Shown piece by piece: positions 519 through 11,384 of a DNA stretch of 13,239 nt (positions within the stretch are counted from its first letter, which is position 1; each line of letters starts with the position of its first letter). A program made the translations under genes and the position numbers. The stretch lies in NCBI GenBank assembly GCA_030705665.1, contig JAUZQA010000043.1:1-13239 (forward strand), read 5' to 3'. This DNA comes from Bacillota bacterium (GTDB lineage: Bacteria; Bacillota; Bacilli; Bacillales_B; DSM-18226). The notes below the pieces were generated by a model. It saw only the letters and a program-made list of their open reading frames with translations, searched no databases and was not told the origin of the DNA.

Positions 519-1685
519 ATGACTGATAACAAGCATCAATTTGCTATTTCACGCGAAGATTGGTCCCTCCACCGTAAAGGCCACGATGACCAGAAGCGCC
601 ATCAGGAAAAAGTTCAAGAAGCGATTCGAAATAATCTGCCAGACCTCATAACAGAAGAAAGCATTATTATGTCAAACGGTCGAGATGTGGTAAAAATTCC
701 GATTCGTTCTTTGGACGAATATAAAATTCGTTATAACTATGATAAAAACAAACACGTGGGCCAAGGTGACGGTGAGAGCCAAGTAGGAGATGTAATCGCA
801 AGAGATGGATCCCCGCAGCAGGGGCCGGGAAAAGGTCAAGGCGCTGGGGATCAGGCAGGAGAGGATTACTTTGAAGCGGAAGTATCTTTAATGGAGCTTG
901 AGGAAGCACTATTTAAGGAGTTAGAACTTCCAAATTTACAAAGAAAAGAGCAGGATGAAAATATCGTTGAGGATATTGAGTTCAATGATATTCGGAAAAC
1001 AGGGTTAATGGGTAACATAGATAAAAAACGGACAATGATGTCGGCATTTAAACGAAATGCTATGAGTGGGAAGCCAGCATTTCATCCTATTTATAAAGAT
1101 GATCTAAAGTTTAAAACCTGGAATGAAGTGCTAAAGCCTGATTCAAAAGCTGTAGTGTTAGCGATGATGGATACGAGCGGTTCGATGGGAATATGGGAAA
1201 AATATATGGCGCGGAGCTTTTTCTTCTGGATGACTCGATTTTTGCGGACGAAATATGAAACGGTGGAAATTGAGTTTATTGCCCATCACACAGAGGCCAA
1301 GGTGGTTTCGGAAGACGACTTTTTCTCTAAAGGGGAAAGTGGAGGTACCATTTGTTCATCTGCCTATCGAAAGGCATTAGAATTAATCGAGGAAAAGTAC
1401 AATCCAAGCAGGTATAATATCTATCCATTCCATTTCTCCGATGGTGATAATTTAACATCGGACAACGCTCGTTGCGTCAAGCTTGTAGAGGAACTCATGA
1501 AGGTTTCCAATATGTTTGGATATGGGGAAGTGAATCAGTATAACAGGCACAGCACTCTTATGTCTGCCTATAAAAACATTAAAAATGAGAACTTCCGTTA
1601 CTATGTTTTGAAGCAAAAAGCAGATGTGTTCCATTCGATGAAGAGCTTTTTCAAAAATGAAGAAAGCAACAAGCAATATGCATAA
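519..1685 (+). CDS. yhbH: sporulation protein YhbH (UPF0229/YeaH family)
   Basis: A 388-residue protein of typical family length. The N-terminus (HQFAISREDWSLHRKGHDDQ) is characteristic of YhbH. A basic and glycine/glutamine-rich linker covers about residues 80-118. From about residue 208 a von Willebrand A-like domain follows, with the metal-site motif DTSGS at 218-222, a later Gly-Gly-Thr (275-277) and FSDGD around 306-310. In Bacillus, YhbH is a sporulation protein; together with PrkA it matches the enterobacterial YeaG-YeaH kinase/partner pair. The ATG follows AAGGAGGGG (504-512) at good spacing. A perfect terminator follows directly. The last codons and the terminator are duplicated 9.6 kb downstream. 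The biochemical role of the family is not well defined. Confidence 0.93.
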   Translation: MTDNKHQFAISREDWSLHRKGHDDQKRHQEKVQEAIRNNLPDLITEESIIMSNGRDVVKIPIRSLDEYKIRYNYDKNKHVGQGDGESQVGDVIARDGSPQQGPGKGQGAGDQAGEDYFEAEVSLMELEEALFKELELPNLQRKEQDENIVEDIEFNDIRKTGLMGNIDKKRTMMSAFKRNAMSGKPAFHPIYKDDLKFKTWNEVLKPDSKAVVLAMMDTSGSMGIWEKYMARSFFFWMTRFLRTKYETVEIEFIAHHTEAKVVSEDDFFSKGESGGTICSSAYRKALELIEEKYNPSRYNIYPFHFSDGDNLTSDNARCVKLVEELMKVSNMFGYGEVNQYNRHSTLMSAYKNIKNENFRYYVLKQKADVFHSMKSFFKNEESNKQYA

Positions 1686-1763
1686 GTGAAATCGACAGGT
1701 AAGAAGCCTGTCGATTTCCTTTTTATGAAAAGCTGGAGGGCATAGCGCATTTCAACCTTGAAT
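1668..1763 (+). repeat. 96-bp direct repeat, left copy (yhbH 3' end plus terminator)
   Basis: This segment covers the last five sense codons of yhbH, the stop codon, the terminator and the following 39 bp. It matches 11289-11384 with no gaps at a constant offset of 9621 bp. I count four substitutions, at 1705, 1742, 1748 and 1751. The similarity ends abruptly at both sides. Since it is continuous with the complete yhbH gene, this copy looks like the original one on its left side. On its right side it runs straight into a truncated MerR gene. Confidence 0.93.
1688..1724 (+). terminator. Rho-independent terminator of yhbH
   Basis: Perfect 12-bp stem GAAATCGACAGG (1688-1699) / CCTGTCGATTTC (1707-1718) with a 7-base loop, then CTTTTT. 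It starts immediately after the yhbH stop codon and is contained in the 96-bp direct repeat. Confidence 0.92.
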
Positions 1764-1853
1764 AAAGGGGAACAGTCCTTGATTATCATAGTAGCGTAAT
1801 TGAGAAATGGATAAATGATTGATTTTTGCAACTTGTCCAATCGTATAATTCAT
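1752..1853 (-). pseudogene. truncated MerR-family transcriptional regulator (first ~32 residues)
   Basis: Reading the minus strand from the ATG at 1853 gives MNYTIGQVAK, then INHLSISQLRYYDNQGLFPF, then IQG and a stop. This is the N-terminal winged-helix start of a MerR regulator: the first helix IGQVAK, and the RYYDNQGLF signature that leads into the wing. A full member has about 110-270 residues. Here the homology stops exactly where the 96-bp repeat begins (1763), and the last codons and the stop lie within the repeat. It starts 11 bp after the SDR stop codon and has a ribosome-binding-like TAAGGG, so it was probably once co-transcribed with the SDR. It cannot be functional as it stands. 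Confidence 0.75.
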
Positions 1854-1863
1854 AGGATTTCCC

Positions 1864-2574
1864 TTACCAAGGAATAATCCCATTTTTGTTCAGAATTTTA
1901 CCATTATAATTTGTTTCGCTTAAGGCGTATTTAACAATGATTTGTGCACCTTCAGCAGTTGTTTTTCCACCTGGAGCATTGCCATTAAGGTCGGTAGAGG
2001 TAAAACCAGGTGTCACACCTAATATTTCAGGACCGTTTGTACCAAATTCTTTTCCAAAAGCTAATGTTAAAGAATTTACAGCGGTTTTTGATGAATTATA
2101 GCCTAATATATTAAGGGGGCCAGCATCACCATTGTCAAACATCGTTTGTGAAGCCATATCGGTAGTAAGGTTAACAACTTTTCCACCCAGAGATTTTTTT
2201 ACTAGTGGTAAAAAGGTTTGGATCATTTGAAATGTCCCAAAGAAGTTAACATCAAATTCTTTACGAAGCGTTTCTAATTTTAATTCACTAGGTAAAACAT
2301 TGAAATCGAGTGCAATCCCTGCGTTGTTTATTAACAAATCTAGGTGATCCGTAACTTTAAGGATTTTATTTTTGGAGTTTTGAATTGATTGTGTATCTGA
2401 AATGTCAACTTGAACAAATGAAACATTCGAAAAGCCTAAAGACTCTATAGCTTTTTGTCCGAGTTCTTCATTACGAGCTCCTAAAAATACGTGATAATCT
2501 TTTTCTGCTAATTGACGGACAATCTCATACCCAATACCTTTATTTGCACCTGTTACAAAAGCGAATTTTGACAT
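1864..2574 (-). CDS. SDR family oxidoreductase (carbonyl-reductase-like)
   Basis: A 236-residue classical short-chain dehydrogenase. The cofactor motif TGANKGIG is at residues 8-15, NNAG at 83-86 and the catalytic YNSSK at 159-163. The usual catalytic serine region reads VVNLTTD (133-139), so a threonine takes the serine position. The sequence is of the plant/bacterial carbonyl reductase-like type (VTGANKGIG...) and probably reduces a small carbonyl compound with NADPH; the substrate is unknown. GGAGGA lies 8 bases before the ATG. It follows the flavodoxin-fold gene by 20 bp, so the two form an operon, with the truncated MerR gene as a former third member. Expression would be set by the promoter and MarR-like site upstream of the flavodoxin-fold gene. 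Confidence 0.88.
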   Translation of the reverse strand: MSKFAFVTGANKGIGYEIVRQLAEKDYHVFLGARNEELGQKAIESLGFSNVSFVQVDISDTQSIQNSKNKILKVTDHLDLLINNAGIALDFNVLPSELKLETLRKEFDVNFFGTFQMIQTFLPLVKKSLGGKVVNLTTDMASQTMFDNGDAGPLNILGYNSSKTAVNSLTLAFGKEFGTNGPEILGVTPGFTSTDLNGNAPGGKTTAEGAQIIVKYALSETNYNGKILNKNGIIPW

Positions 2575-2594
2575 ATTATATTTCCTCCTCTTTT

Positions 2595-10625: not shown

Positions 10626-10652
10626 AAAAAAATAAGGTGATGAAACTATCAC
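10626..10652 (-). terminator. weak terminator downstream of the small frame at 10663-10878
   Basis: GTGAT (10637-10641) and ATCAC (10648-10652) make a 5-bp stem with a 6-base loop. On the minus strand it is followed by CTTATTTTTTT. Confidence 0.4.
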
Positions 10653-10662
10653 ATTATCCCAC

Positions 10663-10878
10663 TTACATAACTCTTAAATTGGTTCCACATGTGCGTGCAA
10701 ACCGATACTGGTTTTCACCATCCATTACGATAAACCCTTTACCCTCCCCATTCACTTCATTAAATCCTACTACAAGTAATGGAGTTTCTAATAATACAAA
10801 TCCATCTAACCTCTTCTGAACATCTTCATTGACAATAATCCAATCAAACAATTTAATATCTTCTACTAATTTTTCCAA
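10663..10878 (-). CDS. small hypothetical protein (71 residues)
   Basis: A minus-strand frame that begins with TTG at 10878, six to seven bases after a GGGGGGA ribosome-binding-like run. The product reads EKLVEDIKLFDWIIV near the start, has a hydrophobic middle (FVLLETPLLVVGFNEVN) and ends KGFIVMDGENQYRFARTC plus GTNLRVM. It is acidic at the start, has no signal peptide and no transmembrane segment. I do not recognise the family. The frame, a plausible start and a small downstream hairpin support a real gene, but the TTG start and shortness leave doubt. Confidence 0.5.
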   Translation of the reverse strand: MEKLVEDIKLFDWIIVNEDVQKRLDGFVLLETPLLVVGFNEVNGEGKGFIVMDGENQYRFARTCGTNLRVM

Positions 10879-11288
10879 CTATAGTCCCCCCAGTTGTCTT
10901 AACTAATAAATTCTTCTCCTGTATCACCTAAATAATGTTATACAGTTCCAGTAAACAATAAAAATAAGATTAATAACTTGATTACACTGTAATTATAAAC
11001 CGGTAATTTTGAATTGGAATTAACTTGTTCACAAATTCACATATAGTTCAAACCTTTTTGAACAATTATTGATACATTTTCCAATCACAAAGTTTGTGAA
11101 ACTATTGTTCTTAAACTAAAAGGAGCATATATACAGTATGATTTTTGACCGTATAAATGAAACAAAACCATCCATTTTTCTAACTTTGCTTACTTATTAT
11201 ATGCAGTAAGTAAATATAGTTTTCAACGTAAACATCAATAGGACTATACTTGGAGAGGTGGGTATGATAAAGCTCTTTTGCATGATGA
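10879..11288. other. gene-poor AT-rich stretch with palindromes and two tiny frames
   Basis: No gene of normal size is visible on either strand. Palindromes are ATTAC-ACT-GTAAT (10981-10993), GTTCAAA-CCTT-TTTGAAC (11046-11063), TCACAAA-G-TTTGTGA (11085-11099) and TTACTTA...TAAGTAA (about 11189-11212). A promoter-like pair TTGTTC (11105-11110) and TATATA (11128-11133) has 17-bp spacing, and another weaker one is TTCAAC (11222-11227) with TATACT (11245-11250). A 24-residue frame starts at 11138 after AAAGGAGC and ends at 11212; its ribosome binding site lies inside the first promoter's spacer, so both cannot be used together. Confidence 0.4.
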
Positions 11289-11323
11289 AACAAGCAATAT
11301 GCATAAGTGAAATCGACAGGTAA
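11264..11323 (+). pseudogene. possible truncated gene start running into the right repeat copy
   Basis: An ATG at 11264 follows GGAGAGGTGGG closely. The frame codes for MIKLFCMM, then continues into the 96-bp repeat (from 11289) as KQAICISEIDR and stops. A good ribosome binding site in front of only about eight native codons, and the inverted repeat TTACTTA/TAAGTAA upstream, suggest the beginning of a gene cut off by the repeat. The original product cannot be identified. Confidence 0.28.
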
Positions 11324-11384
11324 GAGGCCTGTCGATTTCCTTTTTATGAAAAGCTGGAGGGCTTAGCGTATATCAACCTTGAAT
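11289..11384 (+). repeat. 96-bp direct repeat, right copy (orphan yhbH tail plus terminator)
   Basis: It matches 1668-1763 with four substitutions and no gaps. In the yhbH frame it encodes the final NKQYA and stop codon, but TGA codons lie directly upstream (GCA TGA TGA), so no yhbH-like gene precedes it. Its right side leads into the lut terminator region, so this copy probably keeps the original right-hand junction. Confidence 0.93.
11309..11345 (+). terminator. duplicate of the yhbH terminator
   Basis: The same 12-bp stem as at 1688-1718 is intact, with a single base change in the loop and the CTTTTT tail kept. It would stop plus-strand transcription leaving the enclosed segment before it meets the convergent lut operon. 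Confidence 0.88.

Follow-up and report, generated by a model that had tools for sequence, protein, structure and literature searches.

Bacteria can join foreign DNA to their chromosomes by homology-facilitated illegitimate recombination (HFIR), which has been described in Streptococcus pneumoniae, Acinetobacter baylyi, Pseudomonas stutzeri and E. coli and whose junctions carry 3–10 bp of micro-homology in most cases (PMC3240628; here and below, cited statements come from individual passages of the papers). Here we analyze a stretch of 13,239 nucleotides from a Bacillota genome, hereafter the window, in which the end of the sporulation gene yhbH and its terminator-like hairpin occur twice as a 96-bp direct repeat, on either side of about 9.5 kb that carry metabolic genes. 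We consider it fairly likely that a one-sided acquisition of DNA, in an integration hotspot, left this repeat behind as its scar. The acquisition fits HFIR without an integrase, its exact route being a matter of inference. As in HFIR, one end of the insert is homologous, the other end shows a micro-homology of a few bp, and a dedicated recombinase is absent. The window differs in that recipient sequence is duplicated where HFIR usually deletes it, and in that its insert measures 9.5 kb compared with an HFIR average of ∼1 kb (PMC3240628). Transformation can yield duplications by bridging two arms of a replicating chromosome (PMC3784515).

Two further systems resemble the locus. The orphan immunity-gene arrays of Vibrio type VI secretion systems and the orphaned 3′ regions of rhs genes combine constant upstream and variable downstream modules with orphan pieces between them, much like the window, and their authors proposed HFIR as a possible mechanism too. 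The window, however, holds metabolic genes behind a sporulation gene end and terminator rather than toxin/immunity modules (PMC5361080). Gene-intervening elements of sporulation genes, which are moved by serine recombinases, include skin, vfbin, SP-beta and gin in gerE (PMC5595907). Likewise, the sporulation gene yhbH is split at a fixed site by a serine recombinase element in relatives of the window.

A repeat search of the window and a recount of the matches reproduced the direct repeat reported in the initial annotation, an ungapped pair with a spacing of 9621 bp in which 92/96 positions match. We judge this to be far beyond chance, no probability having been computed. The features of the two copies and their surroundings are:

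519..1685, + strand: intact yhbH, encoding the sporulation protein YhbH, DUF444 (NCBIfam TIGR02877, 613 bits, cut-off 468)
1668..1763, + strand: left repeat copy, native to ∼1739 and donor-like from ∼1740
1688..1718, + strand: terminator-like hairpin of yhbH in the left copy
11289..11384, + strand: right, orphan repeat copy, native in type at all informative sites except one
11289..11293, + strand: 5-bp micro-homology AACAA at the right joint (end of the PS3-12 block, see below, and AACAA of yhbH at 1668)
11309..11339, + strand: terminator-like hairpin in the right copy
11412..11451, − strand: terminator-like hairpin behind lutC (same sequence in six other genomes, 85–89% identity)

Each copy comprises the last 18 bp of yhbH, a hairpin of 13 pairs and a 45-bp spacer. 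The left copy is part of a complete yhbH and the right copy is an orphan next to the lut terminator, as the initial annotation had it: the right copy includes only those last 18 bp of the gene and ends 27 bp from the hairpin on the lutC strand. The mismatches lie at repeat positions 38, in the loop of the hairpin, and 75, 81 and 84. An Rfam scan of the window returned no family at the gathering score, and window 1600–1900 has no relatives among plasmids, the gene block itself not having been searched in plasmids or phages.

Among the genomes compared, that of Neobacillus sp. PS3-12 (G001) is the nearest. There, an intact yhbH is followed by ∼25 kb (glutamate dehydrogenase-like, histidase-like and urocanase genes among others), an orphan yhbH tail that we call tail2, the block of the window, and other genes, among them a YkuD gene, a third truncated yhbH tail, a TnpB-like gene (Pfam match just under the cut-off, 26.0 and 26.3, respectively) and lutC. 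MerR, hut, YkuD and lutC labels were assigned by reading and afterwards checked. Window 2576–11293 is 98.5% identical to PS3-12 (96.6–99.6% in 500-bp bins), and identity is lower in the flanks, with 93.7% on the yhbH side and 95.1% on the lut side. Comparison of tail2 with the yhbH of the window reveals 22 synonymous and 0 non-synonymous codon differences over the first 43 tail codons, and of the loci compared tail2 is closest to the other genome of the genus (G002, 87.6%). From this pattern, tail2 comes from another lineage and evolved within a working yhbH; it is no decaying local duplicate. The yhbH-tail matches in PS3-12 are found ≤41 kb downstream of yhbH (10/44 first-look candidates scored, this genome only).

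The left copy differs from tail2 at 15 of repeat positions 1–72 and at 1 of positions 73–200 (Fisher p = 9e-7, with the split picked after seeing the data). When the split is placed at the end of the terminator, 12/51 and then 4/149 positions differ (p = 2e-5). With this drop from 15/72 to 1/128 differences, the left copy is a chimera, native sequence changing to a donor-like one near 1740. Between the right copy and tail2, 14/72 and 3/24 positions differ, and 1 of positions 1–72 differs between the two copies; the right copy is mostly native in type. At 18 sites the two copies and tail2 do not all share one base; 17 of these were used. At the first 14 of these left and right agree, and at the last three left agrees with tail2, which amounts to a single switch between positions 72 and 75 (permutation p = 0.0014). 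The initial annotation had correctly placed three of the four substitutions in the last 22 bp and had taken them to mean that the terminator is under selection or was homogenized. These positions belong instead to the 45-bp spacer behind the terminator, and the footprint of a crossover from ∼73 fits the cluster at least as well.

At the other end, homology between the window and the PS3-12 block stops at AACAA, which is the start of the right copy. Past this motif PS3-12 continues into other DNA, and the window continues into the yhbH end. Of the features that describe HFIR, a junction in homologous sequence is found here as the switch between repeat positions 72 and 75, and a junction with 3–10 bp of micro-homology as the 5 bp of AACAA. 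The similar-sized deletion of recipient DNA, a general but not invariable feature, is replaced by a duplication. The event works like HFIR yet, with recipient DNA duplicated and not deleted, is no strict member of it. The features of HFIR further include dependence on RecA and an origin from incoming linear DNA.

We propose that the recipient chromosome originally read yhbH, terminator, 45-bp spacer, lut. The donor segment would have been arranged as in PS3-12, with a different yhbH tail followed by its terminator, then the same spacer as in the recipient, the remnant of a merR gene and the gene block. A homologous crossover between donor and recipient inside the spacer, just behind the terminator and near window 1740, would have joined one end, and the other end of the 9.5-kb segment would have entered the recipient's own yhbH end through AACAA, ∼72 bp upstream of the crossover. 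In this way the gene end and terminator would have been duplicated instead of deleted. The route may have been HFIR involving sister chromosomes or, as we suggest, replicative template switching; both would give the same product. The repeat, the chimeric left copy, the mostly native right copy, the higher identity of the block and the micro-homology are observed; that there was a single event, its direction and its route are inferred.

The DNA behind yhbH is highly variable and forms an insertion hotspot. Our sample consisted of the best 80 named loci of 562 yhbH relatives, of which 75 with at least 3 kb downstream were used. The first open reading frame (ORF) of 90 aa or more downstream of yhbH falls into 56 clusters in 75 genomes, and the first ORF upstream into 7 clusters in 72 genomes, with 65/72 in one cluster. 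As the sample reaches across many genera, part of the downstream diversity is a matter of age. The top ten Tn916 insertion sites listed for Bacillus subtilis include the gap that follows yhbH (PMC11838328). The suggestion that an insertion at the yhbH 3′ end duplicated the gene end and terminator is borne out to the extent that the 9.5 kb behave in this manner and sit in such variable DNA. A relative in which yhbH and lutC are adjacent had been named as further support, and there is one: in Bacillus sp. DNRA2 (L056), lutC lies 43 bp from yhbH without a repeat (L016 has the same sequence at this place and is probably the same genome). This empty site lends weak support, because DNRA2 belongs to a different genus from the window and the lut-end sequence is located elsewhere in genomes G049 and G161.

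Several observations weigh against a one-sided acquisition from a PS3-12-like donor. PS3-12 is a single genome and the actual donor is not in hand; window 2127–2575 is missing from it. HFIR usually produces a deletion (PMC3240628). The native character of the right-copy spacer hangs on three sites (3/24 compared with 0/24, p = 0.23), each of which could be a private mutation, and position 38, the site excluded from the 17, has the tail2 base in the right copy and not in the left, a small point against the right copy being native throughout. Our confidence is lowered by position 38 and by the edge of the merR remnant, which is less exact: the matches of its 11 full-length relatives start at repeat positions 89–97, with 7/11 at 97.

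Two other histories lead to similar copies. In the first, end joining at AACAA would have closed the donor fragment into a circle, which a single crossover within the 96 bp then inserted into the chromosome. The same gross structure results, and a duplication product was found in 56/60 E. coli clones (109–950 bp in the 14 sequenced), for which the authors concluded this very route (PMC3240628). However, a circle of tail2 type that crossed over near position 73 should leave a right copy that is tail2-like over positions 1–72, where we count the 14 differences given above and a single difference from the left copy; the donor would already have to be chimeric. We therefore regard circularization as unlikely. 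We regard as similarly unlikely, taken as a whole, the collapse of a PS3-12-like array, in which recombination of the yhbH end with tail2 removed the 25-kb cassette, leaving the left copy chimeric, and the right copy arose separately by a tandem duplication at AACAA followed by a later deletion. The array needed for the first step is present in PS3-12, but two or more events are required, and the random deletion that follows the tandem duplication would have to stop where the merR remnant starts, or no more than ∼8 bp away.

The donor in the one-sided acquisition that we prefer resembles DNA behind an attachment site of elements that integrate into yhbH itself. In genome G012, the gene directly behind yhbH encodes a large serine recombinase of 517 aa (Pfam Recombinase and Resolvase), the last yhbH codons from NQYNR onward are replaced, and the native tail is found 36 kb away. 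An orphan yhbH tail occurs in 14/193 genomes of the family, twelve identified by two tail matches and two (G055 and G057) by an orphan match together with a truncated yhbH. Sixteen genomes had been checked for orphans, and G145 and G051 (tail contiguous with yhbH) and G186 and G098 (open-frame length only) were dropped. Relatives of the G012 recombinase at E ≤ 1e-100 are present in 8/193 family genomes, all eight among these 14. No such recombinase accompanies the orphan tail in G001, G009, G064, G097, G119 and G148; the tail lies ∼1 Mb from yhbH in G009 and is a 28-residue fragment on another contig in G064. PS3-12 itself has no match to the G012-type recombinase at E ≤ 1e-100. At the order level, 35/397 genomes have a match at E ≤ 1e-80. 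The gene is cut at VNQ(Y/F)N in 14/25 loci whose recombinase is at least 54% identical to that of G012, and in 0/13 with 38–42% identity (fetched loci extend ∼1.5 kb to each side, 6/36 matches have no locus and some loci are cut short by a contig end). The distance between yhbH and the recombinase is 2.9 kb in G164 and 4.5 kb in G194. The deduced phage sites are more symmetric (13–18 of 22) than the bacterial sites (9–11 of 22) in the five genomes tested. Seven proteins of the G170 element were scanned, yielding portal, major head, tape-measure and endolysin proteins of phage together with an integrase; because of these, this element, the sole one typed, is a prophage.

These elements treat the interrupted gene in two ways and leave an orphan tail of ∼50 codons; the family was also read in order-level loci L214–L230. 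A substitute YhbH C-terminus is supplied in G012, G161, G164, G170 and G194, and G387, G338, G312 and G569 read alike. In seven genomes (G055, G057, G372, G572, G568, G026 and G573), yhbH ends at the junction, or within ∼40 codons past it, with unrelated residues. The latter genes resemble those split by the known intervening elements (PMC5595907). The yhbH elements differ from these in that nine of them supply a substitute C-terminus, and the window itself carries no such element. The site used by the recombinase, deduced from the attL and attR sites of relatives, is found once in the window:

1533..1546, + strand: unoccupied bacterial attachment core (codons NQYNR) for the large serine recombinase family specific to yhbH (sole core match in the window)

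Tail2 carries a phage half-site with a score of 19.3, for which it looks like a relic of such an element using yhbH as its attachment site and standing in for the donor homology. The best score in the window is 11.2 and the best of 20 shuffles is 14.1; the six other arms behind the matrix, of which two are identical, themselves score 22–26. The half-site scan found no phage arm in the window, and a score of −14.8 was obtained for the 20 nt preceding the right copy. Members of the family have a recombinase between the copies and an orphan tail from NQYN behind a GTGTATA-type half-site. The right copy lacks the latter, and no recombinase is among the eleven proteins of the interval that were scanned, in line with the earlier remark that no integrase is visible; of the short ORFs the scan covered that at 10663–10878, for which Pfam gave no match. 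Within the same limit for short ORFs, protein scans and the half-site scan revealed no integrase or phage remnant anywhere in the window. From the empty site at 1533 and the missing arm before the right copy, it follows that the repeat is not an attachment site of this recombinase family, whereas the donor segment resembles DNA behind one. Thus, the likeness to integrating elements drawn in the initial annotation holds for the use of yhbH in relatives and fails for the repeat. That the 96-bp copies are attL and attR of an element with a lost integrase is very improbable, even though relatives integrate in yhbH and leave orphan tails and tail2 has its half-site, as the crossover site lies 135 bp upstream of the repeat, the half-site is missing, the right copy has 18 bp of yhbH where attR sites have ∼50 codons, and recombination at 1533 does not produce a left copy that turns chimeric from ∼position 73.

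Other loci carry related remains. The third truncated yhbH tail of PS3-12, with its terminator (L033, 5916–6016), is located directly behind the YkuD gene, and inspection by eye revealed no phage half-site in its left flank; it is probably another scar of the one-sided kind. Genome G124 has two orphan yhbH tails (G124:C11:175630 and 182222), no intact yhbH was found there, and it possibly represents two tandem insertions. Phage records with a YhbH relative number 17, all <60% identical, and named phages with the recombinase, such as the Brevibacillus phages Jimmer1, Osiris and others, are at most 49% identical. The annotated genes around the Jimmer1 integrase include no YhbH-like gene, the Jimmer1 DNA not having been searched for a tail. 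The full-text literature searched contains no description of yhbH as an integration target; the passages from PMC10083194, a large survey of recombinases, are without yhbH, and its supplementary tables may list the site. A list of proteins from predicted prophages of Paenibacillus larvae includes ‘Sporulation protein YhbH’ (in passages of PMC9341999), and a prophage could be sitting at yhbH there too.

The interval and the lut side contain the following features:

1764..1853, − strand: remnant of a MerR-family gene, first 30 codons, at the left block edge (the full-length relative L200 is MerR in Pfam)
1864..10339, strand not assigned: inserted block (gene content by protein family scans)
11462..12172, − strand: lutC, LUD domain, without an NCBIfam match
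12172..13239, − strand: lutB, LutB/LldF family, below cut-off, running off the window

The block encodes two short-chain dehydrogenases/reductases (SDRs), two flavodoxin-fold reductases (the first KefF-like, below cut-off), MarR, a zinc-type oxidoreductase, a 3-hydroxybutyrate dehydrogenase-like SDR, a CidR-like LysR (below cut-off), acetoacetate decarboxylase, CidA/LrgA and a CidB/LrgB-like protein (below cut-off). The flavodoxin-fold genes at 2595–3128 and 3265–3801 adjoin, are 72% identical over 203 bp and represent an old tandem duplication inside the block. Near 331 kb of its 5.6-Mb contig, PS3-12 contains a second related copy of the block's left half (merR piece, reductase, SDR, MarR; L034, G001:C1:325000–338000, about 6300–8500). 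Genome G097, of another genus, has block pieces at 70–98% identity in rearranged order (L124, L133), which suggests exchange across genera. On the lut side, the search with the lut-end sequence at E ≤ 1 gave mostly chance matches, and the first seven rows alone were used. LutC beside yhbH was rejected as a general empty site, occurring at 1/80 named loci (L056; five of the 80 span <1.6 kb downstream). The gpmA gene was rejected as the ancestral neighbor, with 0/80 named loci (at most 10 kb downstream covered); it is present in G001, G012 and, by eye, G097.

We tentatively extend the proposed one-sided, HFIR-like recombination to a broader scheme, which is possible but on balance doubtful, in which the yhbH end would be a Bacillales-wide landing site: a serine-recombinase phage family would insert at NQYN, supplying a C-terminus or splitting the gene, its relics would anchor the one-sided exchange of metabolic cassettes between strains, and the array of orphan ends and terminators would record the order of acquisition. 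Within this scheme, split yhbH genes are possibly rejoined in sporulation. YhbH would be a recurrent attachment site in spore formers, of which we found no description in the literature searched. If our interpretation of the repeat is right, the window provides a base-resolution case of a metabolic block that entered a chromosome without an integrase, by one homologous and one 5-bp join, and the duplicated gene end is the signature of such entry. It would also suggest that relics of phages can pave the way for a later exchange of genes at this position, and orphan gene ends could mark such events in genome scans.

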